Part shown: positions 96 through 41,466 of the stretch, piece by piece
How the letters are laid out: each line of letters opens with the position of its first letter
How positions within the stretch are numbered: the first letter of the stretch is position 1
From: a virus
Reading direction: 5' to 3' (one strand)
Virus record (IMG/VR): IMGVR_UViG_3300032236_001100
Coordinates: 1-64,000 of that record
Length of the DNA: 64,000 nucleotides
The notes under the pieces: model-generated
Databases searched by the model: none
Told to the model about the DNA's origin: nothing
What the model saw: the letters and a program-made list of their open reading frames with translations, nothing else
Translations under genes and position numbers: made by a program

Positions 96-394
96 AGGAA
101 TTTTGGTATAGTGAACGAATGTTTAGTATGAAGTCCGCACTGGGAGCCTGGCCCCTATGGCCTCAATAGGGGTTGGCGGTAGGAAAAAAGCCGCGCCGGA
201 GCGCGCGCCCCCCCCTATGATTTTTGGAAACCAAAAACGATACCTCCCCGTAGATTTTTGGGAATATCCAACCAGCCCCCCGTATGATTTTTGGGAAGAA
301 AATAGGAAATTTCTGCGTCGATTTTGCTTGGGGTTCAATTAATCACTAGAATAGATTGCTTAACCCCTCATCGTCCCGCCACAGAGGAAATACA
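96..394. other. Non-coding left-end region
   Basis: No convincing gene is seen; the two short open frames here lack ribosome sites and mirror each other on opposite strands. The stretch carries three copies of a C-run followed by ATTTTTGG (about 208-230, 244-263 and 275-297), the same element that recurs in gaps between genes further right. The AGAGGAAA at 384-391 is the ribosome site of the next gene. Confidence 0.5.
208..297 (+). repeat. Three copies of the C-run/ATTTTTGG intergenic motif
   Basis: Three closely spaced matches to C4-8, a short spacer, then GATTTTTGG or AGATTTTTGGGA. Unlike the single copies that precede genes at 5-12 kb, these are clustered. They lie upstream of the gene at 395 in the same orientation. 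Confidence 0.6.
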
Positions 395-1532: not shown

Positions 1533-1561
1533 TTGACATTTATTGTCTTACTTGTTAAATT
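1533..1561 (+). promoter_or_regulatory. Sigma-70-type promoter, TTGACA-17-TAAATT
   Basis: A perfect -35 at 1533-1538, a 17-bp spacer, and TAAATT at 1556-1561. It sits about 55 bp upstream of the gene at 1616. GGCAACC directly before the -35 is identical to the bases before the promoter at 4353 and resembles half of the repressor operator. Confidence 0.8.
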
Positions 1562-1615
1562 AGACTTGTCGATTGATGAACGGCAAGTTGAAACCAACAC
1601 GAGAGGAACTAGTCG

Positions 1616-2038: not shown

Positions 2039-2097
2039 CCGTTACCACTCCCCTACCCTTACCGCTGACCCGGTCCAACACGAGAGGATAGATAGTG

Positions 2098-2433: not shown

Positions 2434-2460
2434 AGTTGCCAAAAAGTTGCAACAAAGTTA

Positions 2461-2489: not shown

Positions 2490-2543
2490 GTATAAGTCGA
2501 GTGAATGAACGCTCGACTTGACCCAACCCGAGAGGATAGAACG

Positions 2544-2846: not shown

Positions 2847-2864
2847 TTTTCAAACTGCAACCCG

Positions 2865-2893
2865 TTGACAATTACTGTCCTACTTGTTAGAAT
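2865..2893 (+). promoter_or_regulatory. Sigma-70-type promoter, TTGACA-17-TAGAAT
   Basis: TTGACA at 2865-2870, 17-bp spacer, TAGAAT at 2888-2893. A TGCAAC half-site precedes the -35. It drives the amidotransferase-like gene at 2969. The spacer ('ATTACTGTCCTACTTGT') closely resembles that of the promoter at 1533, so the two are probably copies of one element. Confidence 0.85.
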
Positions 2894-2968
2894 GTAATTC
2901 TAATCAACGTGGTAGCAAGTTCTGACCGGCTTGCTATCACCTTATTCTCAACCGAGAGGAATATGCTT

Positions 2969-3811: not shown

Positions 3812-3892
3812 GGAACGCTGGCGGCTTAACTTTCGTCACGAGTCAGTCTGACCGCTGATTCGTGGCCTTTACCTAACCGAGAGGATAGAACG

Positions 3893-4342
3893 ATGGCTGA
3901 TTGCAAGATCATTGCACGGGGCATGCTTGGAGACCATCAGATTGAAGCCCCTGTGGTCAATCCAGGTGGGTGGTTCGGCCAAACGTGGCTGATTGAAATC
4001 GGTGGTTCATACTGGCCTAGCTACTTCTGTGTTGAGGCCGATACGCTTAGTGATGCCATTGATGAGTTTAGTGATTCACAGTATGGCCACCTGATTCATA
4101 TCAATGAATCGGACCTTGCAGACTACGGCATCGACACGGACGAACCTACGTGTTACTTCGCTGGCAACGATGGCAAGCCGTCTGACCTTACTAACATGGC
4201 TATCCACGGCATTGAGGGACGTAGGGGACGCAAGCCCTGGAATTGTCGCTACTTCGCCACTGAGGGTAAGCGTTGGCCACGATCTGGGGTTGACCCCTTG
4301 CGGGTTGACGTAGTGGTTGCCTTGACTGAGGAAAAAAGTTGA
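3893..4342 (+). CDS. Hypothetical phage protein (149 aa)
   Basis: Starts at ATG 3893 after CCGAGAGGATAGAACG. It has an aromatic-rich N-terminal half ('PGGWFGQTWLIEIGGSYWPSYFCVEAD'), then an acidic helix ('LSDAIDEFSDSQYGH'), and a basic stretch with Trp near the C-terminus. Small proteins of this look are common in phage early regions, but no named family is recognised. No signal peptide or membrane segment. Its last codons overlap the operator at 4338. Confidence 0.72.
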   Translation: MADCKIIARGMLGDHQIEAPVVNPGGWFGQTWLIEIGGSYWPSYFCVEADTLSDAIDEFSDSQYGHLIHINESDLADYGIDTDEPTCYFAGNDGKPSDLTNMAIHGIEGRRGRKPWNCRYFATEGKRWPRSGVDPLRVDVVVALTEEKS

Positions 4343-4349
4343 CGGCAAC
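4338..4349. promoter_or_regulatory. Operator-like palindrome GTTGACGGCAAC
   Basis: A GTTG-N4-CAAC dyad three bases upstream of the -35 of the promoter at 4353. An identical 12-mer occurs at 24560-24571 and close relatives lie at 30752, 31644 and 38609. It is proposed as a binding site of the XRE repressor encoded at 30833. Confidence 0.6.
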
Positions 4350-4352
4350 CTA

Positions 4353-4381
4353 TTGACAACAATACGTACCCGTGGTACATT
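4353..4381 (+). promoter_or_regulatory. Sigma-70-type promoter, TTGACA-17-TACATT
   Basis: TTGACA at 4353-4358 and TACATT at 4376-4381, spaced 17 bp. Spacer and downstream bases (TACGTACC; AAGTCGAGTGAAT) are nearly the same as in the promoter at 2461, showing a duplicated promoter cassette. It drives the gene at 4430. Confidence 0.85.
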
Positions 4382-4429
4382 ATGTAAGTCGAGTGAATAA
4401 ACGACCTGAAACACGAGAGGATATCAAGG

Positions 4430-5125
4430 ATGCCCAAGTCAATCGAGATTAAGGTTTACACGCTGGCCGAACTGAAGTCGATGGCTGACGCCAAAGATGC
4501 AAGCAAGGCCCAGCGCAAGGCTTACGAGAAAGCACTTGAATGGGTGCGAGAGGGTCAAGCCGATGGCAATTACTGGCACGAAGAAATCATTGCAGACTGG
4601 ACTTACAACCTGAAGCGAATCGGCTTCACCGCCCCCAGAATTTTCTTCAGTGGTTTCGGTAGCCAGGGTGACGGGGCTTGCTTCACTTGCAACTCCATCG
4701 ACTTCGAGAAACTGGCCGTTGCCATCGCGGAAGCAAAAAGCAACCTGATGCCTGATCGTAGTGACGTGACTGAGTTTCTCTTGACCATTCGCAACTATAA
4801 GCCGTTCGTGTCCCGGCTTGCCAAATTGTGTGACGGTGGCTTCATTGAGATGGCAATCGAGCGCGGCACGTCACGTTACTGTCACGAGAAAACGGTAGAA
4901 TTGACCGTTGACGCTCATGAGTCGAGCAATACCCGCAAGACCGCCTTCAAGACTCGCCTTGAAGAGTTCAAGCAAGACCTTGACTGGTTTCGCGTCAGAC
5001 TGTGCCGCGCAATCTACCGTGACCTTGAAAGTTCCTACGACTACCTCATGAGCGACGAAGCATGCATTGGTATGGCTGAGGCCAACGATTACACGTTCAC
5101 CGAGTACGGTATGAGACTAGGCTAA
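4430..5125 (+). CDS. Phage protein with a SGFGSQGDGACF motif (231 aa)
   Basis: Starts at ATG 4430 behind CGAGAGGATATCAAGG. The most telling segment is 'FFSGFGSQGDGACFT' (about residues 71-85), preceded by a helix ending 'WTYNLKRIGF'. This motif recurs in a widespread phage family of unknown function. The C-terminal half is helical with many charged residues ('FKTRLEEFKQDLDWFRVRLCRAIYRDLESSYDYL'). No signal peptide. Expression is probably under the operator at 4338, so it may be shut off in lysogens. Confidence 0.75.
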   Translation: MPKSIEIKVYTLAELKSMADAKDASKAQRKAYEKALEWVREGQADGNYWHEEIIADWTYNLKRIGFTAPRIFFSGFGSQGDGACFTCNSIDFEKLAVAIAEAKSNLMPDRSDVTEFLLTIRNYKPFVSRLAKLCDGGFIEMAIERGTSRYCHEKTVELTVDAHESSNTRKTAFKTRLEEFKQDLDWFRVRLCRAIYRDLESSYDYLMSDEACIGMAEANDYTFTEYGMRLG

Positions 5126-5151
5126 CGCCCATACCGCACCCGCAACCACTT

Positions 5152-5174
5152 ACCCCGCTTCGTGATTTTTTGAG
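5152..5174 (+). promoter_or_regulatory. C-run/ATTTTTTG leader motif
   Basis: ACCCCGCTTCGTGATTTTTT followed by GAG, then CTGACCGGC and CCGAGAGGAT before the ATG at 5220. This is a full copy of the composite leader seen between many early genes. Confidence 0.55.
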
Positions 5175-5219
5175 TTTCTTTACACTGCTCTGACCGGCAT
5201 TACCCGAGAGGATTGACCG

Positions 5220-5936
5220 ATGATGAATCTGCCTAAGATCGAAGACTTGTCTGGCGACACGATTGATAGCAAGCCCGTTGAATTCGATTTCAGCACGGGC
5301 TACGGTGAAACGTGGGATATCGTCCAAGAATACCCGGAAGACTGGACCGCTGAGGATTGCAAGCGGTTCCTTGACGATAATGGCCGCGACTATGACAGTG
5401 AGCTGACCCGCTACTTCCACGACCTTGAAGCCCTCATGCCTGATGATGCTACTGAGGAACTTGAATCGTCCGACACGCCTGAAGGTCTTATCAAGGCCCT
5501 TGACGCCAGGCTGATCGACCATACTGACGAAGATAGCAAGCACTGCACCGAGCTTCGCTACCTGGCTTCAGAAGTGCTGTCTAACAGCGACTACAACTTC
5601 CCAGTCATGAACTATATCTACCCGCTGCCAAGCGGTGACGCCGATAGGATTAGGGGCAAAGTCAACAATCTTGTTAGTACGACCTTGATTCACCGCCTGG
5701 ATACCGATACTTACGGACTGGCCTTAACTGGCGGCGGGATGGACTTCTCAATCGAAATCTGCAAGTCGTTCATCGCCCTTGGCTATATGCCGCCAGTCCA
5801 CTTCTGTGACCTGCCCCGTATGTCCGGGTTCCCGTCAAGCCGTTTCGACCGCTTGGTGATTGAGGCGTGCAAGGAATCGTGCCGTATCGCTATCAAGCGT
5901 ATCGGCTTCACTATCTACCGCCTAGAATCGTTCTGA
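5220..5936 (+). CDS. Acidic hypothetical protein (238 aa)
   Basis: The ATG at 5220 keeps the usual spacing to CCGAGAGGATTGACCG; the next codon is also ATG. The N-terminal half is rich in Asp/Glu ('YPEDWTAEDCKRFLDDNGRDYDSELTRYFHDLEALMPDD'). The C-terminal half is more hydrophobic, with 'LALTGGGMDFSIEICKSFIALGYMPP', a pattern common to an uncharacterised phage protein group. No catalytic signature was identified. It is one of the larger early proteins and stands in a gap-separated single-gene unit with its own leader. Confidence 0.75.
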   Translation: MMNLPKIEDLSGDTIDSKPVEFDFSTGYGETWDIVQEYPEDWTAEDCKRFLDDNGRDYDSELTRYFHDLEALMPDDATEELESSDTPEGLIKALDARLIDHTDEDSKHCTELRYLASEVLSNSDYNFPVMNYIYPLPSGDADRIRGKVNNLVSTTLIHRLDTDTYGLALTGGGMDFSIEICKSFIALGYMPPVHFCDLPRMSGFPSSRFDRLVIEACKESCRIAIKRIGFTIYRLESF

Positions 5937-5955
5937 CCTAACCCTCTTATGTATC

Positions 5956-5980
5956 ACCCCCCAGCCATAGATTTTTGGGA
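5956..5980 (+). promoter_or_regulatory. C-run/ATTTTTGGGA leader motif
   Basis: CACCCCCCAGCCATAGATTT continues to ATTTTTGGGAG. The trailing GGGAG also lies at ribosome-site distance from the ATG at 5990, so in this copy one sequence may serve both roles. Confidence 0.55.
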
Positions 5981-5989
5981 GCCAATACG

Positions 5990-6262
5990 ATGGATGCCAG
6001 CAAGCTACTGAATTCGGCCACTGCCGCCGCTGATGGCACGTATGTTCTGTATGCACCTCGCGCTAATCGCGCGGTCCTCATGGTGGCCAAAAACAACCGA
6101 GTCGCTATGGTGGCCGTTGTCGATGAAAGTTCCTATTACGGTTGGGCCGTTACTCGCGTTACTGGTTCCGAAGCGGAGCTAGTAGCTTCGACGGTCTTCT
6201 GTCAGCCATCTGGCCAACCAAGCGGAGTCGATCTTGCCAAAGTTGACGTGTTCAAGTTCTGA
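5990..6262 (+). CDS. Small hypothetical protein (90 aa)
   Basis: The start at ATG 5990 sits 8 bases after GGGAG; an in-frame TTG at 5975 lies inside the leader motif and is less likely. The sequence alternates hydrophobic strands ('GTYVLYAP', 'RAVLMVAKNNRVAMVAVVDE', 'YYGWAVTRV'), fitting a small beta-barrel or beta-sheet domain. No family recognised. Confidence 0.7.
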   Translation: MDASKLLNSATAAADGTYVLYAPRANRAVLMVAKNNRVAMVAVVDESSYYGWAVTRVTGSEAELVASTVFCQPSGQPSGVDLAKVDVFKF

Positions 6263-6311
6263 GTTAATTTCGGCAAGCAAACTGATTCTAAACCCGGCGT
6301 TTCCGGTACTG

Positions 6312-6333
6312 ACCCCCGGACACGATTTTTGAG
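6312..6333 (+). promoter_or_regulatory. C-run/ATTTTTGAG leader motif
   Basis: ACCCCCGGACACGATTTTTG; nine of its core bases are shared with the copy at 6855. It is followed within 10 bp by the 16-bp palindrome and then by the ribosome site for 6381. Confidence 0.6.
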
Positions 6334-6341
6334 ACTGAGCT

Positions 6342-6357
6342 GTCTCCGCGCGGAGAC
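6342..6357. repeat. 16-bp perfect palindrome GTCTCCGCGCGGAGAC, copy 1
   Basis: Exact inverted repeat in the gap before the gene at 6381, flanked as T...A. Four more exact copies lie at 19343, 33130, 40780 and 55686, with a degenerate one at 27986. A repeat this long and exact across unrelated regions is not expected by chance. Confidence 0.9.
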
Positions 6358-6380
6358 AAACAACCGAGAGGATATTGATC

Positions 6381-6836
6381 ATGCCTATCACTCGCAACGG
6401 CTTAGAACTTCACTGTTACGCGCCAGGTGACGGTGCCCTATCTTTTAGCTGGGTTGACATTAGAGAGGGAAACGTAGTCCCTGGAAAGGTAACGCCATCA
6501 CTTGCGCGTAGATTCCTGAAAAGTCGTGACGGACTGGGACGCCGCGACTATCACGTTGTGACAGTCAACGGTGAAGTCAGACTTGCACCACCTGTTAGGC
6601 GTGTCTGTGACGACGTGGTTCGTGTTAAATGGCATATGTCAACGCTATGCAAAAATTACGCAGACGTTCGTATCGAAGTCACTGGTGGGCCTGGCCCAGT
6701 CACGTTCTACCAGCTTAAAGCATGGACTATTGACGAGGATGGAACCAAAGTCGATTTCAAGCATATCTCTAGTTTGATGGCCATCGTTTTCTTTCTGAAC
6801 CACCAGCAACTCTACAAGGAACTGGGCCTGGCATAA
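6381..6836 (+). CDS. Hypothetical protein (151 aa)
   Basis: Starts at ATG 6381 after CCGAGAGGATATTGATC; a TTG six bases earlier is not needed. It contains 'SFSWVDIREGNVVPGKVTPSLARRFLKSRDG' and ends with 'LMAIVFFLNHQQLYKELGLA', a helix at the C-terminus. Basic residues are frequent in the centre. No known domain is recognised, and there is no signal peptide. Confidence 0.72.
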   Translation: MPITRNGLELHCYAPGDGALSFSWVDIREGNVVPGKVTPSLARRFLKSRDGLGRRDYHVVTVNGEVRLAPPVRRVCDDVVRVKWHMSTLCKNYADVRIEVTGGPGPVTFYQLKAWTIDEDGTKVDFKHISSLMAIVFFLNHQQLYKELGLA

Positions 6837-6854
6837 AGCTCTAGCTACGCGAAA

Positions 6855-6878
6855 CACCCCCGGACACGATTTTTCGAG
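6855..6878 (+). promoter_or_regulatory. C-run/ATTTTTCGAG leader motif
   Basis: CACCCCCGGACACGATTTTT then CGAG, followed by GCTGACCCGGC and ACGAGAGGA before the ATG at 6928. A complete composite leader. Confidence 0.6.
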
Positions 6879-6927
6879 ATTGACTAAGCCGCTGACCCGG
6901 CCATTCCCAAACGAGAGGACCACGATC

Positions 6928-7338
6928 ATGACAGACACGATTCTTGAAGCGGTACTTGATTCCTATATCGAGTGCGCATTATGGACTACCACCGACGAAT
7001 CAGACGAACGTGGCGGCAACCCGCTTGACGATAACTATGGGCCGTCTGATCTTTCCCCAGAAGCCCTGGAAGCGATGCGCAAGGATTGTGCCAGGTTCCT
7101 CAGAGACAATAAGGTGATCCTTGAGACTTTTGACGAACTTTACCCTAACTGGTTCACCAAGTACTCGACTGAAGAAATGATCGGCCACGACTTCTGGCTG
7201 ACCCGCAACGGTCACGGAGCTGGCTTCTGGGACGGCGGCTGGCCCGGTATTACCGGCGATATTCTCACCCGGTCGTGCAAGGCGTTTGGCGAGTGCAACC
7301 TGTACGTGGGTGACGATAGCAAGATTTATGTTTGCTAA
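6928..7338 (+). CDS. Hypothetical protein, WDGGWPG-type (136 aa)
   Basis: The ATG at 6928 follows ACGAGAGGACCACGATC. The C-terminal half contains 'GHDFWLTRNGHGAGFWDGGWPG' (about residues 88-109), a motif recurring in small phage proteins of unknown function. The N-terminal half is acidic and helical. No catalytic residues can be assigned with confidence. The size and the conserved aromatic/Gly core suggest a compact single-domain protein. Confidence 0.78.
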   Translation: MTDTILEAVLDSYIECALWTTTDESDERGGNPLDDNYGPSDLSPEALEAMRKDCARFLRDNKVILETFDELYPNWFTKYSTEEMIGHDFWLTRNGHGAGFWDGGWPGITGDILTRSCKAFGECNLYVGDDSKIYVC

Positions 7339-7356
7339 TATCGGCAGCGACTCAAT

Positions 7357-7380
7357 AACCCCACCGCAAGATTTTTTAAT
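7357..7380 (+). promoter_or_regulatory. C-run/ATTTTTTAA leader motif
   Basis: AACCCCACCGCAAGATTTTT then TAAT; a weaker copy without the CTGACCGGC part. The gene at 7412 follows with ACGAAAGGAT as ribosome site. Confidence 0.5.
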
Positions 7381-7411
7381 CCGGGTTCACACAATACGAA
7401 AGGATACGACG

Positions 7412-7714
7412 ATGGCAAGAGTTAAGAAAGTCAAGCCGCTGAAAATGCCGGTAGCACTCAAAAACGCATTGTACAATGCGTCCAAAAATTGCACTGGAAG
7501 CATTGCGAGTGGCTGCAAGCATAGCATCGAAAGAAACCAAGCATACGGTCGAGGCATCATCGTTGGTTGCGTTAGCGCGTTAATGGCAACCGGCATGACG
7601 TTTGATGAAGCCTGGCTGTTCATTGGCGGCAATATCCCTACCGACTATGACGAGGCATGCGTCCCCGATACATGGCCGCTTCGCCAGCTTTCAAAGTCTC
7701 AACCCTCTCAGTGA
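7412..7714 (+). CDS. Basic hypothetical protein (100 aa)
   Basis: Starts at ATG 7412 after ACGAAAGGATACGACG. A Lys/Arg-rich N-terminus (MARVKKVKPLKM) leads into a helical core with a hydrophobic stretch 'GIIVGCVSALMATGMTFDEAWLFIGG', probably a buried helix pair rather than a membrane span. No family recognised. The stop codon lies inside the next leader motif. Confidence 0.7.
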   Translation: MARVKKVKPLKMPVALKNALYNASKNCTGSIASGCKHSIERNQAYGRGIIVGCVSALMATGMTFDEAWLFIGGNIPTDYDEACVPDTWPLRQLSKSQPSQ

Positions 7715-7730
7715 TTTTTGGGAATCACTG
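7702..7730 (+). promoter_or_regulatory. ATTTTTGGGA leader motif with hairpin
   Basis: CCCTCTCAGTGATTTTTGGG. The flanks CAGTGATT (7709-7716) and AATCACTG (7723-7730) form a perfect 8-bp stem with loop TTTGGG. It overlaps the stop codon of the preceding gene, so it could act as a terminator or RNA-processing site. Confidence 0.5.
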
Positions 7731-7774
7731 TCGCCCGTTCCTGAACCGTTCGCCAGCAATCAAGGAAAATCACA

Positions 7775-8197
7775 ATGGCCTTCAAGTCGCCACGACTCAA
7801 AGATCGTAACGCATCCATTCCAGAAATTCTCGACCGCCTCTTTTCCGGCAAGCGAGTCGATGAAGTCACACTCCGAAACGCTAAAGCCGAGTACGACAAG
7901 CTCAAATTGATCAAGTCGGCTAAGACCACCAAGCCACTGACCGGTGAGGAACGCCAGCGTAGGGCGCGAGGCCGTCCAAAAAACTCCGAGCCAATGGCAC
8001 GCTTCAACATGAAGCTAACGCAATCCGAGCTGACGGCCTGGAATGATGCGTGCGATATATTGAAATACGAGTCGCTTTCCGCTATGGTCCGGTTCGCGGT
8101 GAACGGCCTCGTGAATAACGTGATCGAAACCAAGCATAATGTAATGCCACTCAATCAAGAAAACACCGGCCAGCAACCAACCACCCCCGCCCCATGA
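7775..8197 (+). CDS. Ribbon-helix-helix-type DNA-binding protein with AT-hook-like segment
   Basis: Probably a DNA-binding regulator. Residues about 63-72 read 'RARGRPKNSE', like an AT-hook (RGRP core). They are followed by 'ARFNMKLTQSELTAWNDACDILKYESLSAMVRFAVNGLV' in pieces typical of an RHH or CopG-like fold: a beta strand with alternating residues, then two helices. The gene at 8475 has the same architecture and nearly the same SAMVR(F/H)A-NGLV helix, so the two are paralogs. The stop codon overlaps the ATG of the SWIM gene (ATGA), implying coupled translation of the three genes. Confidence 0.75.
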   Translation: MAFKSPRLKDRNASIPEILDRLFSGKRVDEVTLRNAKAEYDKLKLIKSAKTTKPLTGEERQRRARGRPKNSEPMARFNMKLTQSELTAWNDACDILKYESLSAMVRFAVNGLVNNVIETKHNVMPLNQENTGQQPTTPAP

Positions 8198-8478
8198 TTT
8201 CCCAGATTAAAATTCGAGGTCGAACCTACCGCTTGGAAAAGATCAGCAGTAGGTTTATCCTCTCTTACGGCGAACGGTCCCACCGGGTTGATCAAGACGA
8301 CAACCAATGGTGCGGTTGGATATGCGATTGCGAGGACTTCGCCTACCGCCGCGAGGGCAATAAAGCTGACCCCTGCAAGCATATCTTAGCTTTGCACAAT
8401 CAGGGCTTCACAGTTCTGTCAGACAGATATCTCTTTCAGCCAGCCGATTCACAAGACACGAAAGGGCCGATAAAATGA
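8194..8478 (+). CDS. SWIM zinc-finger protein (94 aa)
   Basis: The CxC...CxH signature of SWIM zinc fingers is present: C44-D-C46 and C61-K-H63, with a 14-residue gap. The N-terminal 40 residues form strands ('IKIRGRTYRLEKISSRFILSY'). SWIM domains bind DNA or protein partners in recombinases, transposases and bacterial ATPase complexes. Here the domain stands almost alone. It overlaps its neighbours by ATGA on both sides, between two RHH-like proteins, so the three probably act together. Confidence 0.82.
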   Translation: MISQIKIRGRTYRLEKISSRFILSYGERSHRVDQDDNQWCGWICDCEDFAYRREGNKADPCKHILALHNQGFTVLSDRYLFQPADSQDTKGPIK

Positions 8479-9179
8479 CCGTTGCATCCATCGCACCGGA
8501 ACCATTGCTGAAAACGACCACAACCGCCATGACGCCGATCACCCAAGTGATAGAGCGTGTCCTCATGCGAGACACGCCAACCGATCACGAAGTCGAATCT
8601 GCCTGCAAAGAATTCAAGGCAATCGCACCGTTCGCTGTCCCAGACGGCAAGCTGGAAAAGCTGATCTCTTCATTGTCCAACGAAGATGAGTTCCCCAGCG
8701 ACTCGTTGGCCTCGCAAGCCCTACGCGAGTACGAGCAAGCCGTGATCCAGCGATACCTCGTAACGACCGGCAAGTCGTTCAAGCCGCCCCGCAAGGCCAA
8801 AGAAGCCGACCATAAGCCCAAACGGCCACGAGGCCGTCCCAGGCTTGACAAAGATATGAAAAATCTGCACTTTCGAGTCGAGACAAAACGCCTCGAAGCC
8901 TGGAAAGAAGTCAGTCGCAAGCTCGGTTTCAATAGCGTTTCCGCGATGGTTCGTCACGCTATGAACGGCTTAGTCGAATCTGGTCTGGTGATCTCAGAAG
9001 ACGAGCTTCACGAGGAACGTCAGCACCATGAAGACGTTATGACAGGCGCGTCTGTCAGGATCACCATAGGCGAATTAAAGTCATGGGAAGATTACTGTCA
9101 ACAATACGGCAACCGAATAGTTGCGGCTATCATCAGGATTGCCGCCGAACGCCTTACTCGGCCATTCGGAGATATGTAA
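8475..9179 (+). CDS. Tandem RHH-like DNA-binding protein with AT-hook-like segment (234 aa)
   Basis: Paralog of the protein at 7775. An N-terminal helical domain of about 100 residues is followed by 'KRPRGRPRLDKD' (AT-hook-like) and 'LHFRVETKRLEAWKEVSRKLGFNSVSAMVRHAMNGLV' in the same order as the 7775 protein. A second similar unit near the C-terminus ('ASVRITIGELKSWEDYCQQYGNRIVAAIIRIAAERL') suggests two ribbon-helix-helix folds in one chain. It starts at ATG 8475, overlapping the SWIM gene by four bases. A role in transcriptional control or DNA organisation is an inference. Confidence 0.75.
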   Translation: MTVASIAPEPLLKTTTTAMTPITQVIERVLMRDTPTDHEVESACKEFKAIAPFAVPDGKLEKLISSLSNEDEFPSDSLASQALREYEQAVIQRYLVTTGKSFKPPRKAKEADHKPKRPRGRPRLDKDMKNLHFRVETKRLEAWKEVSRKLGFNSVSAMVRHAMNGLVESGLVISEDELHEERQHHEDVMTGASVRITIGELKSWEDYCQQYGNRIVAAIIRIAAERLTRPFGDM

Positions 9180-9223
9180 AATCCAGAGAAAAAATGCAAT
9201 CAGAAAATAATTCCGGTTGCCAA

Positions 9224-9252
9224 TTGATTTTGTGTGCTACGTTTCGTATATT
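9224..9252 (+). promoter_or_regulatory. Promoter TTGATT-17-TATATT for the serine recombinase
   Basis: -35 TTGATT at 9224-9229, 17-bp spacer, -10 TATATT at 9247-9252, about 65 bp before the recombinase start. GGTTGCCA just upstream resembles the repressor half-site. Confidence 0.75.
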
Positions 9253-9316
9253 AGATCTTGTCGAGAGCAAACACTGACCTGAACGCCTTCGACTCTAAAC
9301 CCGAGAGGAACATGAG

Positions 9317-10051
9317 ATGCAGAAATATGTGCCCTACGTCCGTGTGAGCAGCAAACGCCAGGGTGACAGCGGCCTGGGCCTGGAAGCTCAGGTCGAGGCC
9401 GTTAAGAAGTACGCTGAATCCAAGTCTGGTGAGATTGTCCGTGACCCGTTTGTCGAGGTCGAGACAGGCACCAAAGATCGTGTCGTGCTTCGTACTGCCC
9501 TGGCTTATGCACGTCGAACCAAGTCTACACTTGTGGTCGCCAAGCTCGACCGTATCGCCCGTGATATGAAGCTGTTCTGTGAGATCCGCGACTCTGGCAC
9601 CAACGTGGTCTTTCTTGACCTGCCAGACGTGCCGCCAGGCCCCGTTGGTCAGATCATGCTCACGATGCTTGCTGCATTCGCTGAGTTTGAAGCTAAGGTG
9701 ATTCAGGAGCGAACCAGAGCTGCGCTCGGAGTCCTCAAGAAACGTGGTGTTAAGCTCGGTGCCGCCCGTGAGGGTGCGCCTCGTCTCACTGACTCTGATC
9801 GTGCCGCTGGTCGCAAGGCCGCATCTGAGGCCATCTCTAATAAGGCTGTCAAGCGCAACGCTGACATTCTGCCGGTTGTCCTCGGTCTGCGTGAGGACGG
9901 CATGCCACTGAGTGAGATCGGTGAGTTCCTGGCTGAAAACTACGGTTCCCTCACTGCAAGCGGCCAGCCATTCGACGCTAGCCGTGTAGCCAAGCTGGTG
10001 CGAATGGCTAAGAAGGCGGGCGTCAAGCCAGCCATGCCGGTGCTTGCCTAA
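9317..10051 (+). CDS. Small serine recombinase (resolvase/invertase family)
   Basis: Site-specific DNA recombinase using a serine nucleophile. 'YVRVSSKRQ' puts the catalytic Ser at residue 11. Later landmarks are 'VAKLDRIARD' (74-83) and the E-helix 'AEFEAKVIQERTRAAL' (122-137). The C-terminal 100 residues hold a small DNA-binding part ending in an HTH-like 'MPLSEIGEFLAENYGSLTASGQPFDASRVAKLVR'. The length of 244 aa fits small resolvases and lacks the long C-terminal domains of large integrases. It starts at ATG 9317 behind CCGAGAGGAACATGAG. A tyrosine integrase is also present (31858), so this protein may resolve multimers or invert DNA. Confidence 0.92.
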   Translation: MQKYVPYVRVSSKRQGDSGLGLEAQVEAVKKYAESKSGEIVRDPFVEVETGTKDRVVLRTALAYARRTKSTLVVAKLDRIARDMKLFCEIRDSGTNVVFLDLPDVPPGPVGQIMLTMLAAFAEFEAKVIQERTRAALGVLKKRGVKLGAAREGAPRLTDSDRAAGRKAASEAISNKAVKRNADILPVVLGLREDGMPLSEIGEFLAENYGSLTASGQPFDASRVAKLVRMAKKAGVKPAMPVLA

Positions 10052-10062
10052 TACGGAATGCA

Positions 10063-10094
10063 AGCCGCCTCAAATTATGTGGCGGCTCACTTTT
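10063..10094 (+). terminator. Hairpin with T-run after the serine recombinase
   Basis: AGCCGCC (10063-10069) pairs with GGCGGCT (10081-10087), loop 11, followed by CACTTTT. A short Rho-independent-like terminator. Confidence 0.5.
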
Positions 10095-10095
10095 A

Positions 10096-10117
10096 ACCCC
10101 GCTCAAGATTTTTTGAA
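10096..10117 (+). promoter_or_regulatory. C-run/ATTTTTTGAA leader motif
   Basis: AACCCCGCTCAAGATTTTTT then GAA, followed by CTGACCGGC and ACCGAGAGGAT before the ATG at 10158. A complete composite leader. Confidence 0.6.
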
Positions 10118-10157
10118 TCGCCCTGCCCTGACCGGCAGCAACCGAGAGGATAATATC

Positions 10158-10583
10158 ATGACTCTGAAAGAATGGTCCGAGCTATCGCAGATTCACGCTA
10201 CGTCACCGAACGAACGTGGCAACGTATCTTTGACGATTAGCCCTACTCACTTTCACCATCGGTCGCTGTATCACCTGGATGACTACTACGTCGATTTCAT
10301 GAACGGGCCAGTTGTATGGATGAAACCCAAACTAAAAGCCGAGATCACTGTGTGGGCACCGCTTGATCACGCCACAATGCAAACGCCTCTGATCGGTCGT
10401 TGGGAAATCATGGTTGCTGGCCCATGCGATGCCGAGGCCGTAGCCAGAACGCTCATGCGAGATAAAGGTGGACATTCTGCATACTATGTCATGCCGGATC
10501 ACTGGAACCAAAACATCCGATCCAACTGGCTAACAAGCAACGGCTGGCTTTCTGGCCTTCGCGCCATACCACCCACCCAGTGA
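10158..10583 (+). CDS. Hypothetical protein (141 aa)
   Basis: The ATG at 10158 follows ACCGAGAGGATAATATC. It contains many His and Trp residues ('SPTHFHHRSLYHLDDYYVDFMNGPVVWMKPKLKAEITVWAP') and strands in the first half, with a shorter helix ('PCDAEAVARTLMRDKGG') in the second. No known family is recognised; there is no signal peptide or transmembrane segment. Confidence 0.7.
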   Translation: MTLKEWSELSQIHATSPNERGNVSLTISPTHFHHRSLYHLDDYYVDFMNGPVVWMKPKLKAEITVWAPLDHATMQTPLIGRWEIMVAGPCDAEAVARTLMRDKGGHSAYYVMPDHWNQNIRSNWLTSNGWLSGLRAIPPTQ

Positions 10584-10612
10584 TTTTCCCAACCCACAAC
10601 GAGGCCCAACCC

Positions 10613-11056
10613 ATGATTGCTCAGACCCGAATCCTGCCCGACTTCAACGCAATACGATCCATAGCCGAGGAGATCGGCTCAGACCTCGCTCACGAGATTC
10701 TGGAGCGTGACCTGTACGTTTCCTGGCCGGGACTCGACCAGGCCAACAGCGAGCCTCTGACGGCCCTGGGGCTCAAGCCCACCGATCCTGAGTGGTTCGA
10801 GGCCGAGAGGCTTGCCGCCAGGATGTTCACGGCTGGCCTGCTGATCTTGGATATCCAGGCTGAACTAGACAGGCTGGGTTGGAGCAGGACCACCGGCAAC
10901 CCCGATGGTCTGGCGGTTGTGCCACTCAGTCACGGCAAGGTGCAGGTTCTTGGCCTGCAAGACCAGGCGACACAAGACGCCAGGATCTTGCTCTCCAGGC
11001 TCAAGGCCGTCCGTACCGGCGTGCCCTACTCAATCACGTTCATCACCGGACTCTAA
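10613..11056 (+). CDS. Hypothetical protein carrying the 'LDRLGWSR' shared domain (147 aa)
   Basis: Starts at ATG 10613 after ACGAGGCCC; an upstream GTG at 10580 overlaps the previous stop and is less likely. Residues 1-80 are helical and unlike neighbours. From about residue 82 the sequence 'ILDIQAELDRLGWSRTTGNPDGLAVV' and a later 'ARILLSRLKAV' match the N-terminal part of the proteins at 11111 and 11966. The function of the shared domain is unknown. Confidence 0.7.
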   Translation: MIAQTRILPDFNAIRSIAEEIGSDLAHEILERDLYVSWPGLDQANSEPLTALGLKPTDPEWFEAERLAARMFTAGLLILDIQAELDRLGWSRTTGNPDGLAVVPLSHGKVQVLGLQDQATQDARILLSRLKAVRTGVPYSITFITGL

Positions 11057-11059
11057 CAA

Positions 11060-11085
11060 GACCCCCCCCGACGTAATTTTTTGAA
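11060..11085 (+). promoter_or_regulatory. C-run/ATTTTTTGAA leader motif
   Basis: ACCCCCCCCGACGTAATTTT then TTGAAG, located 27 bp before the ATG at 11111. Here the usual GAGAGG ribosome site is replaced by AAGGAG. Confidence 0.55.
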
Positions 11086-11110
11086 GTCGATTTACCAAGG
11101 AGATTTGACA

Positions 11111-11881
11111 ATGGCCAGCAGCAAGATGATCAAAGCAATCGAAGCGGAACTTGAGCGGCTTGACTGGAACGGGTCCGAGACCAACGTGTCCGGGTTCGTT
11201 ATCACCGACTACGAAGAAATGGTAGGCACATTGCCACCAAACTTCGTCGTGCTGTACGACGATCACATCCGGTTCGTTGATGATGCTGACAAGATCCTGA
11301 ACGCACTCAAGGCAGCATCGCCCGACGACGAATATGGGACCGGCCTGGACGATATCCAGCAGGATTCGGACTACCTAGCCGCTCGTCGCCAGGAACTCGT
11401 GCAGATCCTGGGGGTTATCACAACGAAGGACCATGCCGGTGTTCACTTCACCACGAACTACACCAGAGACGTACTGGAGAGCCTGGAGTGGGTTGGATGG
11501 ATCAAGATTCATAAGCCAGTCCACGAGGCCACTGGCCTGGAGTACAGCGAGGAGAACTGGTCCCTGGAAGTCACGCCCGAAGGCCAGAAGGTCGTGGACG
11601 ATGAGTACCAGGAACCCAAAGAAGAGGACGAGCGTATCTCGCTTTGCATCGACAACGGCCCTGGCGGTTACGTTGTGTCGAATCCCGACAGCATTCCGCG
11701 CCAGATCATTCACGTCATGTCACCCGATGGGCCTATGATCACGGGAAGTACCGACAGCCACTCGGTCGTGGCCGAATGTTGGGAAGCTATTAACGGACTC
11801 ACGGGCTGGAAGAGCGAAGACGAAGTCACGGTCGATCATGATCGCCAGACGATCTTCGTGTCCGGTCGCAAGCTGTCCTGA
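11111..11881 (+). CDS. Hypothetical protein with N-terminal 'LDRLGW' domain (256 aa)
   Basis: The ATG at 11111 lies behind AAGGAGATTTGACA. The first 65 residues ('IEAELERLDWNGSETNVSGFVITDYEEM ... RFVDDADKILNALKAA') match the shared domain in 10613 and 11966. The middle ('YTRDVLESLEWVGWIKIHKPVHE', 'WSLEVTPEGQKVVDDE') looks like a small winged or beta-rich module, and the C-terminal 75 residues form another alpha/beta part. The protein is acidic. No known family; the repeated domain suggests local gene duplication followed by fusion to different partners. Confidence 0.72.
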   Translation: MASSKMIKAIEAELERLDWNGSETNVSGFVITDYEEMVGTLPPNFVVLYDDHIRFVDDADKILNALKAASPDDEYGTGLDDIQQDSDYLAARRQELVQILGVITTKDHAGVHFTTNYTRDVLESLEWVGWIKIHKPVHEATGLEYSEENWSLEVTPEGQKVVDDEYQEPKEEDERISLCIDNGPGGYVVSNPDSIPRQIIHVMSPDGPMITGSTDSHSVVAECWEAINGLTGWKSEDEVTVDHDRQTIFVSGRKLS

Positions 11882-11890
11882 GCTAACACG

Positions 11891-11913
11891 GGAGCCTGGT
11901 CTGAACAGGCTCC
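11891..11913 (+). terminator. Hairpin after the gene ending at 11881
   Basis: GGAGCCTG (11891-11898) and CAGGCTCC (11906-11913) form a perfect 8-bp stem with a 7-base loop. The T-run comes only about 18 bases later, inside the next leader motif, so terminator activity is uncertain. Confidence 0.45.
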
Positions 11914-11915
11914 AT

Positions 11916-11941
11916 ACCCCCCCCTTCGGGATTTTTTGGGA
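11916..11941 (+). promoter_or_regulatory. C-run/ATTTTTTGGGA leader motif
   Basis: ACCCCCCCCTTCGGGATTTT then TTGGGA. In this copy CCC-TTC-GGG could itself form a tiny stem before the T-run. The TTG start at 11966 follows behind CGGAG. Confidence 0.55.
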
Positions 11942-11965
11942 TCAAAACAGCACGGAGAATTTACG

Positions 11966-12472
11966 TTGAACGCATGTCTTGCAGCGATCAAGTCTGAACT
12001 CGACCGCTTAGGTTGGTCTCGCTCTGAGTCCAACCCCTCTGGATTCGTTGTGACCGACGAGGTTGACCTTGGGGCCACGGCTAACGGTATCACCTATAGC
12101 CACCCAGGAGACCTTCGATGGGTCCACGTTTACAACGACAGAATGGACAGATACGGCCACGCAGAACATATTCTGAGGATCTTGAAAGAACTTTCCGAAT
12201 ATGAGCATGTATTCGATTTCATCTCAGCGACAGCACCCCAAAGCCCAGCCAGGATTGGCAAGGCTTTGGGCTTCACGCTGGCAGAAATCAGGATGCGAAG
12301 CCTCATCAAGAACCGGCCAACCTTGGATCAAATGCTTCACGACTGCGAATGCAAGCATTTGATTCGCTTTGGGCTCAAGCCGGGAACACGAGCCTGGGAA
12401 GTCTTTGAGTCTTCAGCAAGACAAGCATTCGAGACAAGTGTGGCTCAACAAAATGAGGAGCAACGCCAATGA
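11966..12472 (+). CDS. Hypothetical protein with N-terminal 'LDRLGWSR' domain (168 aa)
   Basis: TTG at 11966 is preferred because CACGGAGAATTTACG precedes it; no in-frame ATG lies near. Residues about 5-75 ('AAIKSELDRLGWSRSESNPSGFVVTDEVDLG', later 'AEHILRILKEL') are the clearest version of the domain shared with 10613 and 11111. The C-terminal part ('GKALGFTLAEIRMRSLIKNRPTLDQMLHDCECKHLIRFGLKPGTRAWEVFE') is helical and unrelated to the others. Function unknown. Its stop overlaps the next ATG by four bases. Confidence 0.68.
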   Translation: MNACLAAIKSELDRLGWSRSESNPSGFVVTDEVDLGATANGITYSHPGDLRWVHVYNDRMDRYGHAEHILRILKELSEYEHVFDFISATAPQSPARIGKALGFTLAEIRMRSLIKNRPTLDQMLHDCECKHLIRFGLKPGTRAWEVFESSARQAFETSVAQQNEEQRQ

Positions 12473-12714
12473 TATGGACTCCAGCTTCGCAGCCGCCTCC
12501 ACTGCACAAAGATGAGAACCTGCTTGATACGCTGACATCGGACGATGTTTTGGCTGTAGACAAGTGGGGAAAAATTTTTGTCGCCTACATGCAGTCGGAC
12601 GAATATTACGGGACTCGCTGGCGAACAACATGCTCCGAAGGATGGATTCTGAATGAAGGAACTGTCACACACTGGATGCCACTACCACCCTTGCCAGAAA
12701 AGGACAAACCATGA
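12469..12714 (+). CDS. DUF551-like small protein (81 aa)
   Basis: The pattern fits the phage-borne DUF551 family: 'MIWTPASQPPP' at the start, an acidic 'DDVLAVDKWGKIFVAYM' strand pair, and the hallmark 'VTHWMPLPPLP' near the C-terminus (about residues 66-76). Family function is unknown. It is coupled by ATGA to genes on both sides, and the following gene is a longer relative. Confidence 0.78.
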   Translation: MIWTPASQPPPLHKDENLLDTLTSDDVLAVDKWGKIFVAYMQSDEYYGTRWRTTCSEGWILNEGTVTHWMPLPPLPEKDKP

Positions 12715-13160
12715 ACTGGACCCCAGCCCTGATCTTGCCATCACTAAGCGAAGCCATAGGCCACCCTCGCGTGCTGGTCTCGGACGATGTGCTTGCAATC
12801 AACAATCAGCGAGAACAGTTCGTCGCATTTGTTGAGAAGAGAGAGGGCTTGGACCCACGGTGGATGTCAGGCAGGCGCGAGCTTGGCGACATCGAATACT
12901 GGATGCCCTTGCCTGCGGCACCAGACGCAGAGAAGCAAGAGCCGATGGGCAGCGTATACGTCGAACACGTTCACGTTACACAGGAGCAATTCAGCAAAGA
13001 GCCAGCTGTCTACTTTGACAAGATCGGCATCGACGGATCGACCGTGACCGTCCACAACGAAGATGGCGTCATCGGCCACCTCATTCCAGACTGGATGCTT
13101 CGCCAGATCGTGCGAGAAAATCTGGGCTTGCCTCGCAAGAACTCCGATATGTTAGTGTAA
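12711..13160 (+). CDS. DUF551-like protein with C-terminal extension (149 aa)
   Basis: Residues 1-70 repeat the DUF551 plan of the gene before it: 'MNWTPALILPS', 'LVSDDVLAINNQREQFVAFVE', and 'IEYWMPLPAAP' at 61-71. The remaining 75 residues ('VYVEHVHVTQEQF', 'VYFDKIGIDGSTVTVHNEDGVIGHLIPDWMLRQIV') form a second alpha/beta part not seen in the shorter relative. It arose probably by tandem duplication. Role unknown. Confidence 0.75.
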   Translation: MNWTPALILPSLSEAIGHPRVLVSDDVLAINNQREQFVAFVEKREGLDPRWMSGRRELGDIEYWMPLPAAPDAEKQEPMGSVYVEHVHVTQEQFSKEPAVYFDKIGIDGSTVTVHNEDGVIGHLIPDWMLRQIVRENLGLPRKNSDMLV

Positions 13161-13211
13161 GGTTGACATCAACTATGCCGCTGACCCGGCACTAACCGAG
13201 AGGATTGCAGG

Positions 13212-13421
13212 ATGCACGCGACACAAGGCCACAGTAGGCTTACCCTGGCGTTTCTGACTCTGGCTGCATGTTTTACCGCTGGATGTCAGACGGCCCCGCA
13301 GAGGCCACGCTGGGAGACGACAGTGGCCATCCGGTACGAAGGCCACCCAGACGCTGAAGACAAGGTAGTTGCCGAACTCTCGATGAAAACCTCGAACCCA
13401 GTGACCGATGCCAAGAAATGA
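13212..13421 (+). CDS. Small predicted lipoprotein (69 aa)
   Basis: Starts at ATG 13212 behind ACCGAGAGGATTGCAGG. A short basic N-terminus, a hydrophobic core ('LTLAFLTLAACF') and the lipobox 'FTAGC' place the lipidated Cys at residue 25. The mature part is only about 45 residues, polar and Lys/Glu/Asp-rich. Small phage lipoproteins can be outer-membrane spanins or superinfection-exclusion proteins; no partner inner spanin is evident. A hairpin terminator follows directly. Confidence 0.75.
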   Translation: MHATQGHSRLTLAFLTLAACFTAGCQTAPQRPRWETTVAIRYEGHPDAEDKVVAELSMKTSNPVTDAKK

Positions 13422-13428
13422 TGAACAG

Positions 13429-13470
13429 GTTGCCACCAGGAGCTAAAATACTTGGTGGCAACTTTGTTTT
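13429..13470 (+). terminator. Rho-independent-type terminator after the lipoprotein gene
   Basis: GTTGCCACCA (13429-13438) pairs perfectly with TGGTGGCAAC (13453-13462), loop 14, followed by TTTGTTTT. The arms also contain GTTGCC half-sites like those at repressor-type operators, so protein binding is a second possibility. Confidence 0.7.
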
Positions 13471-13487
13471 GGCATGGGAGGATTGAG

Positions 13488-13904
13488 ATGGAGTGGATCG
13501 AGGTCAAGCGGAAGTTACTCGGATTCAATATCCGCAAAGGTGAGAACAGCAGGGACAAAGGCGGCATCTACGCTGTTTTTTCGATTGCCGAACACTGCGA
13601 GGAAACCGGCGAATACCGGAACGCGATCCGCAACGGACCCACCGTGCGCTATCACGATCACGGCTGGGATGCCTTCGTGGCCCTGGCTGGCCCCTATATC
13701 GCACTGGCCGAGAATCCAGGCATGTTGGCCGATGAACGGCCTGTGGTTGCACCGTCGCCACACTCGTTCTGGAAGAAGCGACCAGGCAGACGGCCCAAGG
13801 CGATGATCGGCACCGACCAGGCTGAAGAGGGCACGGAGTCAGAAGAAGGCCAATATCGTTTTAGCTCATCGGGTATTGACTTGGGGCTCCCAAGATTGCC
13901 GTGA
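13488..13904 (+). CDS. Hypothetical protein (138 aa)
   Basis: The ATG at 13488 follows GGGAGGATTGAG; the upstream in-frame start would lie inside the terminator hairpin. The N-terminus is basic ('MEWIEVKRKLLGFNIRKGENSRDKGG') and is followed by 'YAVFSIAEHCEETGEYRNAIRNGPTVRYHDHGWDAFVALAGPYI'. The C-terminal 45 residues are low-complexity, with a basic patch 'KKRPGRRPK' and an acidic tail. No family recognised. Confidence 0.65.
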   Translation: MEWIEVKRKLLGFNIRKGENSRDKGGIYAVFSIAEHCEETGEYRNAIRNGPTVRYHDHGWDAFVALAGPYIALAENPGMLADERPVVAPSPHSFWKKRPGRRPKAMIGTDQAEEGTESEEGQYRFSSSGIDLGLPRLP

Positions 13905-13916
13905 GCGCATAAAAGT

Positions 13917-13944
13917 GCCCGGCAGGTCTGACCACCTGCCGGGC
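13917..13944. terminator. Strong GC hairpin without T-run
   Basis: GCCCGGCAGGT and ACCTGCCGGGC form a perfect 11-bp stem around CTGACC. No poly-T follows, so it may be an RNA-stability or processing hairpin rather than a true terminator. It lies between the genes ending at 13904 and starting at 13993. Confidence 0.55.
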
Positions 13945-13992
13945 GGCACAACCCCAGGCTACGAGCCTGAAACCGAGAGGAGAGATGTGCAG

Positions 13993-14283
13993 ATGTATTC
14001 TACACCCTCAGATAAACCAAGTCAACGAGCAGGAAGCCATGACGTGAAGTGTAATGACCCGTATTGCCCTGAATGCCGGTCCCTGGCGGTATCGAACCTG
14101 ATCGACCGGATCGCCAACCTGATGTTGACCGACGAAGAAGCCGAAGAATTCTGGAAAGCTGGGCTCAACGCCATTACGCAAACCAGGGTCAAGGCACCGG
14201 CTGTCCTTGGCACCCAGGCCAAAGCGCAACCCAAGGCACCCAGACCCTGGTTCAAAGACAATCCCATGTGGCGTAACGGTTAA
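13993..14283 (+). CDS. Small protein with putative zinc knuckle (96 aa)
   Basis: Last gene of the rightward block. ATG 13993 lies 8 bases after AGGAGAG; an in-frame GTG at 13987 is the alternative. Residues about 18-26 read 'CNDPYCPEC', a candidate metal knuckle. A helical segment ('NLIDRIANLMLTDEEAEEFWKAGLNAI') and an Ala/Pro/Lys-rich C-terminus follow. Its 3' end overlaps the convergent gene at 14280 by four bases. Confidence 0.65.
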   Translation: MYSTPSDKPSQRAGSHDVKCNDPYCPECRSLAVSNLIDRIANLMLTDEEAEEFWKAGLNAITQTRVKAPAVLGTQAKAQPKAPRPWFKDNPMWRNG

Positions 14284-35589: not shown

Positions 35590-35686
35590 TGGTAAATTCC
35601 TCTCGATAGGGTGATTGGTCAGAATCATCAGATTTGCATGGATGCAGGCGGCTTCGTCTGCCGCCGCATTAAAGATCAGCTAGCGA

Positions 35687-40779: not shown

Positions 40780-40795
40780 GTCTCCGCGCGGAGAC
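40780..40795. repeat. 16-bp palindrome GTCTCCGCGCGGAGAC, copy 4
   Basis: Exact copy between the terminator and the 3' end of sigma factor B; its last base belongs to the stop codon of that gene. It is thus downstream of both flanking genes, which argues against a promoter role for this copy. Confidence 0.9.
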
Positions 40796-41466
40796 TAATC
40801 TTCGAGGATCGCCTTGAGTTCGTCTTTGGCCAGATGATAGAGAACCCTGGCCCAGCTGCCCGTCACGCCAAACTCGGCTCCAATGTCCGAGAACAGCATC
40901 GGGTTGCCATCGTCCCAACCGTGCCGCATCTTGATGATCTCGCGGCTCACGATGGGTAGCATGTCAAGCATATCGGTCAGATATTCGCGTTCATCCAGAT
41001 TGTCGATCTGGTGGAAGTCGCCATCGTCCTGCAATCCTTCGCAATGCTCCACCCATGTCTCAATCTGGCTCACATCCGTGGCACCCACAGCTTCCAGAGC
41101 AAACGCAGCGATCCTCTGGTCATGATACGTGTCTGACTTCACATCGCCAGGCAGTGGCACAATCAGCATGCCTCGCAGCTTGCGGATCATCCTGCGCAGG
41201 ATCGACCGCTTGGCATACACATAGAATATCGTGCCTGATGCCAGGTCAAAGTGACGTGATGCCAGCAAGAGAGCAATCGAGCCTTCCTGAACCATGTCAG
41301 GGGCCAGCGATTGCCGCCTGGGTTTCGACCAGCCGTGCATCACCTGTTTCGCGCAATGCTTGATCAGAGGGATATTGATACGAATAAGTTCGTCTGTCGC
41401 CTCAGTATCGCCCTGCTGGACGAGAGTGACGAGACGCCGGTTAATGACATCATCTATTTCACACAC
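40795..41466 (-). CDS. Phage sigma-70 family factor B (223 aa)
   Basis: Region 2: 'LAPDMVQEGSIALLLASRHFDLASGTIFYVYAKRSILRRMIRKLRG' (about 54-99). Region 4: 'LPIVSREIIKMRHGWDDGNPMLFSDIGAEFGVTGSWARVLYHLAKDELK' (about 168-217), where the HTH is 'FSDIGAEFGVTGSWARVL'. GTG 41466 overlaps the glycosyltransferase stop and has AGGAAA before it. It is distinct in sequence from factor A at 23084. Located at the end of the late leftward block, it may drive late promoters. Confidence 0.87.
   Translation of the reverse strand: MCEIDDVINRRLVTLVQQGDTEATDELIRINIPLIKHCAKQVMHGWSKPRRQSLAPDMVQEGSIALLLASRHFDLASGTIFYVYAKRSILRRMIRKLRGMLIVPLPGDVKSDTYHDQRIAAFALEAVGATDVSQIETWVEHCEGLQDDGDFHQIDNLDEREYLTDMLDMLPIVSREIIKMRHGWDDGNPMLFSDIGAEFGVTGSWARVLYHLAKDELKAILED

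Follow-up and report, generated by a model that had tools for sequence, protein, structure and literature searches.

A C/T element is repeated in front of early genes of phage W

What is the role of a short C-run and T-run that a phage repeats, always in the same orientation, before its small early genes? We asked this of phage W, the IMG/VR record IMGVR_UViG_3300032236_001100 (84,755 bases), the first 64,000 bases of which were analyzed and are called the window here. A sequence-only reading of this DNA had listed at least nine gaps at 5 to 12 kb, plus a cluster of three copies at 208-297, that carry such a repeat. This was confirmed for nine gaps (5.1 to 12 kb) and for the cluster, and all copies are on the + strand. 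We refer to the repeat as the C/T element. In W it has the form C3-8, then 3 to 8 nucleotides, then (G)ATTTTT(T)G. There are 12 copies between 208 and 11940. Three form a tandem array with spacings of 34 and 33 bp, and the other nine are single, each lying before a gene (Table 1). No copy was found in the rest of the 84,755-base record. A strict form (CCCC, with G before the A) gave 24 overlapping matches versus 0.43 expected in shuffles. When each site was counted once in W 1-14,300, there were 11 on the + strand and 0 on the - strand (shuffle mean, 0.06; maximum, 2). The motif wording of the sequence-only reading holds generally, but the copy at 7703-7722 has CCC only, that at 11062-11085 has A for G before ATTTTTT, and the trailing G, present in other copies, is absent after copies 6857 and 7359. 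It had also given a distance to the start codon; measured from the end of the T-run, this distance is 13 to 55 nucleotides at the nine gaps and 102 to 169 nucleotides for the triple.

W encodes a small-terminase homolog, a CI-like repressor, a tyrosine integrase, a DNA polymerase clamp, a helicase, an Erf-like annealing protein, thymidylate synthase, and a sigma factor. This gene content, including the CI-like repressor and the tyrosine integrase, identifies W as a tailed phage, with a probably temperate lifestyle. Near-identity and protein searches of an annotated phage collection yielded no relative, and neither did a scan of viral contigs with early gene 5220 or a search of bacterial genomes with the small terminase, although the bacterial genomes did contain one distant terminase, in an alphaproteobacterial metagenome-assembled genome. 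Scans of viral contigs with the portal, the small terminase, and the large terminase returned one contig alone, IMGVR_UViG_3300032242_002717 (87,401 bases), the sole relative found for W. We call it B. Other phages with the C/T motif may exist beyond the matches listed in a scan of viral contigs for it. Its portal and terminase are 83% and 86% identical to those of W, and most W genes have a counterpart in B. In the early region, nucleotide similarity is only patchy. Therefore, short elements that are conserved there are informative.

Looking for the motif in related genomes had been suggested as a check, and B has nine C/T copies plus one variant, all in a single orientation and in the matching early region. 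Most have a stricter form, C5-8 TGAACGATTTTTTGA, and the tenth copy is the variant CCCCTGAAAGTTTTTTTGAG, before gene 4840. When the 21 main copies from both phages were aligned on the end of the T-run, C was present at -17 and -16 in every one, despite varying T-run and spacer lengths. The two positions after the T-run (+1/+2) read GA in every one of the nine B copies and, in W, mostly GG or GA. Conservation drops beyond about -20 to +3. The consensus is uniform within B and differs between W and B.

Both records start with a short tandem array beside the first C/T element (window 1-97; B, L129 reverse complement 1-80). The arrays differ in sequence, with a 19-bp unit in W and one of about 26 bp in B, and they may mark an assembly break point in a circular map.

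The C/T element tracks the downstream gene

The C/T element is retained before the one-to-one W and B orthologs of genes 395, 5220, 7412, and 7775. The upstream neighbors of 5220, 7412, and 7775 are not orthologous between the two phages, and the remainder of the C/T-bearing gaps can hardly be aligned. Because the element is kept before orthologs while the upstream neighbors differ, the comparison assigns it to the gene below and not to the tail of the gene above. There are also families in which only one phage has it. The 6928 family has the element in W, and its B member, which lacks it, lies behind a sigma70-driven gene. The reverse is true of W 3893, which has no element, and B 4840, which has the variant copy. 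At B 4840, B 9693, and W 5990, the T-run ends only 9 to 16 nucleotides before the start codon. Therefore, there is no space at these genes for a separate promoter downstream of the element.

The C/T element and sigma70-type promoters occupy different gaps

In W, sigma70-type promoters precede genes 1616, 2544, 2963, and 4430 and, more weakly, recombinase gene 9317. In B, promoters of this type (TTGACA-17-TACATT) precede genes 1457, 2597, and 3513 and recombinase gene 7815, and two copies have the downstream stretch ATATAAGTCGA in common. A C/T element and a clear sigma70-type promoter are never in one gap in W or B. The probability of such complete separation arising by chance is 0.0065 for W and 0.08 for B, values that are not independent in these related genomes. 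A search for -35 and -10 hexamers 16 to 18 nucleotides apart found none at C/T elements, and it found promoter-like sites in other gaps. The sole automatic promoter match over an element, before B 7353, was weak and was set aside. The recombinase gene (9317-10051), which encodes a small serine recombinase of the DNA-invertase family, sits amid the C/T block, and in W and B alike it is preceded by a sigma70-type promoter of its own.

Leaders share a covarying CTGACC hairpin and an extended ribosome site

The sequence-only reading had treated the C/T element, a CTGACC(C)GGC string, and an extended ribosome site as one composite cassette. The full composite is present at three gaps only, before 5220, 6928, and 10158. 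Because leaders that lack a C/T element can also contain the CTGACC motif and the GAGAGGA site, we regard the composite as three independent modules and not as one cassette. The extended ribosome site, (A)ACCGAGAGGAT or a close variant, lies before thirteen + strand genes in W and in three leaders in B.

The CTGACC(C)GGC string is real, but its hairpin nature had been missed. CTGACC is the invariant 6-nucleotide loop of a hairpin upstream of the extended ribosome site. An exact CTGACC loop occurs in eleven leaders, which represent ten distinct sequences, and each of the four base pairs next to it is complementary throughout, so that 40/40 cells are paired. The stem covaries, with 24 both-side changes versus 6.3 in shuffles, and slid controls were 18 to 45% paired. 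Across the two genomes, the stem is present at 10/15 CTGACC sites within 75 nucleotides of GAGAGGA versus 2/106 elsewhere (p = 1.4e-9). Two weak stems (5190 and 35622) are not the minimum-energy fold of the leader alone, and at B 13684 the hairpin is kept with a seven-base loop. Rfam covariance models gave no match at the gathering score or at E<=1, and a search of viral contigs for the hairpin together with the ribosome site found hairpins in B only.

The hairpin occurs after sigma70 promoters, after C/T elements, or in leaders with neither. Where a C/T element is also present, the hairpin starts about 8 to 14 nucleotides past the T-run. Therefore, it would be close to the 5' end if RNA starts at the T-run. 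Because a distant relative retains both the C/T element and the hairpin, we take both to be real control elements. The leader at 13912-13989 contains GAGAGGA and two hairpins, one of them a CTGACC hairpin of 12 bp. Its DNA identity to B (89%) is far above that of the early region around it, and this stretch may represent a small RNA or a leader peptide.

TABLE 1 Coordinates of control elements and selected genes in the phage W window
Feature	Position	Strand	Remarks
C/T copy 1 of triple, CCCCCCCCTATGATTTTTGGA	208..228	+	Upstream of gene 395-760; one copy before B ortholog
C/T copy 2 of triple, CCTCCCCGTAGATTTTTGGG	243..262	+	
C/T copy 3 of triple, CCCCCCGTATGATTTTTGGG	276..295	+	
C/T element before gene 5220-5936	5153..5174	+	Present before B ortholog 5638
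C/T element before gene 5990-6262	5957..5979	+	ATG 13 nt past T-run end
C/T element before gene 6381-6836	6313..6333	+	
C/T element before gene 6928-7338	6857..6877	+	B ortholog 3032 without element
C/T element before gene 7412-7714	7359..7380	+	Present before B ortholog 6363
C/T element (CCC only) before gene 7775-8197	7703..7722	+	Overlaps end of gene 7412-7714; present before B ortholog 7353
C/T element before gene 10158-10583	10097..10117	+	
C/T element before gene 11111-11881	11062..11085	+	Copy also precedes B unit 11792-12531, with counterpart
C/T element before gene 11966-12472 (paralog of 11111-11881)	11917..11940	+	
CTGACC hairpin, ACCG-CTGACC-CGGT	2061..2074	+	Leader of gene 2098
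CTGACC hairpin, 13-bp stem	2909..2940	+	Leader of sigma70-driven gene 2963; z -3.8
CTGACC hairpin, 13-bp stem	3835..3866	+	Leader of gene 3893
CTGACC hairpin, 4 bp	5186..5199	+	Leader of gene 5220, after C/T element
CTGACC hairpin, 4 bp	6888..6901	+	Leader of gene 6928, after C/T element
CTGACC hairpin, 5 bp	10123..10138	+	Leader of gene 10158, after C/T element
CTGACC hairpin, 5 bp	13176..13191	+	Leader of small lipoprotein-like gene at 13212; 7-nt loop in B ortholog
CTGACC hairpin, 12-bp stem	13916..13945	+	Inside stretch 89% identical to B
CTGACC hairpin, 5 bp	35612..35627	-	Before minus-strand gene with GAGAGGA site
Extended ribosome site, CCGAGAGGAT	5204..5214	+	
Further ribosome sites (first position)	1599, 2080, 2528, 2952, 3877, 4413, 6364, 6911, 9301, 10142, 13196, 13973	+	
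Sigma70-type promoter, TTGACA-17-TAAATT	1533..1561	+	
Other sigma70-type promoters	2461-2489, 2865-2893, 4353-4381	+	
Sigma70-type promoter, weaker	9224-9252	+	
Phage sigma factor, sigma70 regions 2 and 4, ECF-like	40795..41466	-	Ortholog in B
Small basic protein, RGRP stretch, ribbon-helix-helix-like C-terminal sequence	7775..8197	+	Paralog of 8475-9179

Other genes of W and B

B has a single counterpart of the 7775-8197 and 8475-9179 paralogs. The 7775 protein had no Pfam match, and its structure model was of low confidence with no significant fold match. Its sequence makes it a possible DNA-binding regulator encoded inside the C/T block. The early genes also include one for a class II glutamine amidotransferase-like protein (2963-3811; Pfam GATase_4/6), which is conserved in B. 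Outside the window, the large terminase frame (1031 amino acids; contig 71593-74688; L004:7593-10688, - strand) apparently has two intein-like insertions, GRSAGK/LLSVETP...PTHN/TRSAAEW and DEL/CLTPDT...LTHN/CKWSK, and the B match starts inside the second. Two gaps in B (L129 reverse complement, about 10425-10465 and 10840-10885) contain two similar hairpins, GGGGCTGCGAGTGCAGCCCC and GGGGCTGCGAGTGCAACCCC, which are possibly terminators.

A transcription-start signal is the favored interpretation

We favor, tentatively and at a little short of an even chance, a reading of the C/T element as a compact signal for transcription start that is specific to the phage. The sequence-only reading had offered a phage-specific promoter or a processing site among several options, and of these options that pair best fits the fixed spacing, the position at unit starts, the exclusion of sigma70-type promoters, and the association with the downstream gene. 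Each unit would begin with either a host-like sigma70 promoter or a C/T element. Its leader would then often carry the short CUGACC-loop hairpin, followed by the extended ribosome site (A)ACCGAGAGGAU and the start codon. Within the element, the C block would be centered about 16 bp upstream of the point where a T5-6 run ends, and RNA would start at a purine, usually G, right after the T-run. The reader would be host RNA polymerase with a phage factor, and the phage's own extracytoplasmic function (ECF)-like sigma factor, the sole recognizable transcription-initiation protein encoded, is possibly that factor. The hairpin would act as a 5'-leader RNA element near the 5' end of the message, either as a protein-binding site or as an mRNA stabilizer.

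Several points weigh against a start signal. To our knowledge, the spacing of the C block and T-run (about 14 bp center to center) fits no known sigma70-family promoter. No T7-type RNA polymerase (PF00940) was found in the W and B records, which are possibly incomplete, by a search that does detect the T7 enzyme. The exclusion of sigma70-type promoters partly reflects the two classes sitting in separate blocks, and the sigma factor gene is at the end of the late block, outside the early genes. Furthermore, the system is carried by two genomes only, W and B, which are related to each other. Known promoter types were also compared with the element. A T7-type promoter with its own polymerase was rejected because the polymerase gene was not found in W or B, and the long frames of the pieces scanned had no DxDGD motif of the two-barrel type. 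One B copy has the GG-N10-GA of a sigma54 promoter, but it lacks the -12 GC, and the GG is missing from most copies. An ECF -35 TGAAC is present in B but not in W, and there is no -10 at a fixed distance.

Where the T-run is too near the start codon for a promoter below it, the element would have to be the core start signal itself or act in RNA or on elongation. The main rival is processing of a longer transcript at the U-run. Long sigma70 early transcripts would be cut or protected there, or the U-run would aid ribosome binding, and each small gene would get its own message with a defined 5' end. We consider this unlikely, though some observations fit it. C/T genes are in series behind sigma70-driven genes, and the T-run is directly before the ribosome site at W 5990, B 4840, and B 9693. 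GAUUU is also compatible with the loose RNase E consensus RN/WUU, and ribosomal protein S1 binds U-runs. However, a fixed distance between the C block and the T-run end over 21 copies exceeds what a U-run needs, and the distance to the start codon is variable (about 9 to 169 nucleotides). The triple is 100 to 170 nucleotides upstream of the first gene, and no transcript is known to run into that stretch. Moreover, leaders driven by sigma70 never have the element, whereas the translation modules are found in both classes.

Alternatively, the element might be a DNA site at which a phage repressor or other protein blocks initiation or elongation in one direction, as stoperators do. Its asymmetry, its single orientation relative to transcription, and its many copies in short gaps are all consistent with this, as are the probably temperate lifestyle (integrase and CI-like repressor), a consensus that is uniform within B but different between relatives, and the small DNA-binding-like proteins (7775 and 8475) encoded within the block. 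The likeness to stoperators proposed by the sequence-only reading is weak beyond this one-way orientation, since there is no copy at the CI-like repressor gene (30833), the sigma70-driven units, or the late genes, where silencing would be most useful. Rather, the units marked by copies are exactly those that lack a sigma70 promoter, and they have no other known promoter for the site to block. We consider such a site rather improbable. That the element is a terminator or pause site closing the upstream unit is very unlikely. It does have a T-run, often 5 to 50 nucleotides past a stop codon, and copy 11917 has a strong hairpin upstream, with CCC-TTC-GGG before the T-run. But a G+C-rich hairpin at the T-run is missing from the other copies, a search for intrinsic terminators reported none at C/T elements, and the gaps before sigma70-driven genes, where terminators would be most expected, lack the element. 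The link to the gene below, and a tandem triple with no known upstream gene, also argue against termination. The least probable role is that of a recombination boundary for swapping small genes as cassettes, with gene content expected to change at the motif. The neighbors on the upstream side do differ between W and B at three sites, gene 8194 has been relocated, and a serine recombinase is encoded within the block. However, nucleotide identity between W and B never extends past the element, no recombination was seen at the motif, copies are not identical within W, genes have also moved without the element, and the element is not a palindromic crossover site.

Comparison with known systems

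Single-element phage promoters, such as those of T7-type phages and the T4 late promoters, are compact (8 to 23 bp), have near-identical copies in a genome, and start RNA at a purine. If it is a start signal, the C/T element resembles them in compactness, repeated copies, and purine start, but its sequence is unlike either.

The start-associated sequences (SAS) and extended SAS (ESAS) of cluster K mycobacteriophages are likewise asymmetric repeats that lie immediately upstream of many genes, most of them pointing the same way (PMC3203893, PMC12699233). They have a conserved ribosome-site-like block, a second inverted-repeat element is upstream of a subset, and the consensus varies between related subclusters. 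However, SAS is GGGATAGGAGCCC, whereas the W leaders have (A)ACCGAGAGGAT, and allowing up to two deviations beside the start codon did not reveal the SAS consensus in W or B leaders. ESAS are imperfect inverted repeats of 17 bp in which the arms are conserved and the spacer varies. In the hairpin of W and B, the arms vary and covary, and the CTGACC loop is invariant. The SAS papers describe no C-run/T-run element.

In halovirus HF2, two classes of short intergenic repeats precede genes, their sequence and position are conserved in the genus, and their promoter activity is proven (PMC8707807). The position of the C/T element is similarly conserved between relatives, at four one-to-one orthologs and the unit with the 11111 counterpart, and family structure is a further point of resemblance. 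HF2 differs in having an archaeal host and 58- and 29-bp repeats with AT-rich motifs and no C block, and the promoter role of the C/T element is putative. The stoperators of cluster A mycobacteriophages are many asymmetric sites in short gaps, with orientation tied to transcription; they are 13-mers located genome-wide, including promoter regions, and bound by the immunity repressor (PMC9283540). The C/T element is also oriented, but it is about 23 bp, confined to the early region (0.2 to 11.9 kb), and absent from the repressor locus. The C/T system therefore lacks the sequence features of SAS/ESAS and the placement of stoperators. Functionally, the closest systems are the HF2 repeat promoters and the cluster K SAS/ESAS, although we assign it to neither.

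A scan for two-copy arrays in other viral contigs revealed tandem arrays similar to the triple at 208-297. They consist of TGACCCCCTGTGGCGGGATTTTTGGGC-like units at L180:9795-9915, L019:4835-4895 (-; the same in L193), and L195:12150-12226 (-), in phages unrelated to W. There are 2 to 3 copies, mostly about 33 to 38 bp apart, and the last is near a gene start. These contigs and W shared no candidate reader protein; the clear matches were helicase and ThyX. The arrays may be convergent with the W triple, and we do not claim homology.

Implications

Repeated leader elements of the SAS/ESAS type have been described in phages since 2011, and their function is unproven. In the W/B pair, transcription-type and translation-type modules are cleanly separable, and the covarying hairpin offers a definite RNA target. 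The system would make the role of repeated start-associated elements testable. A more specific proposal, possible but on the doubtful side, is that the C/T element represents a class of phage promoter not described before, in which the C block lies about 16 bp upstream of the T-run end and host polymerase plus a phage factor starts RNA right after that end, and that the transcripts share a hairpin whose invariant CUGACC loop is read by a phage or host protein. If this is true, the small early genes would form a two-layer regulon in an unstudied phage lineage, and the candidate promoter class and leader hairpin could be sought in other unstudied phages.

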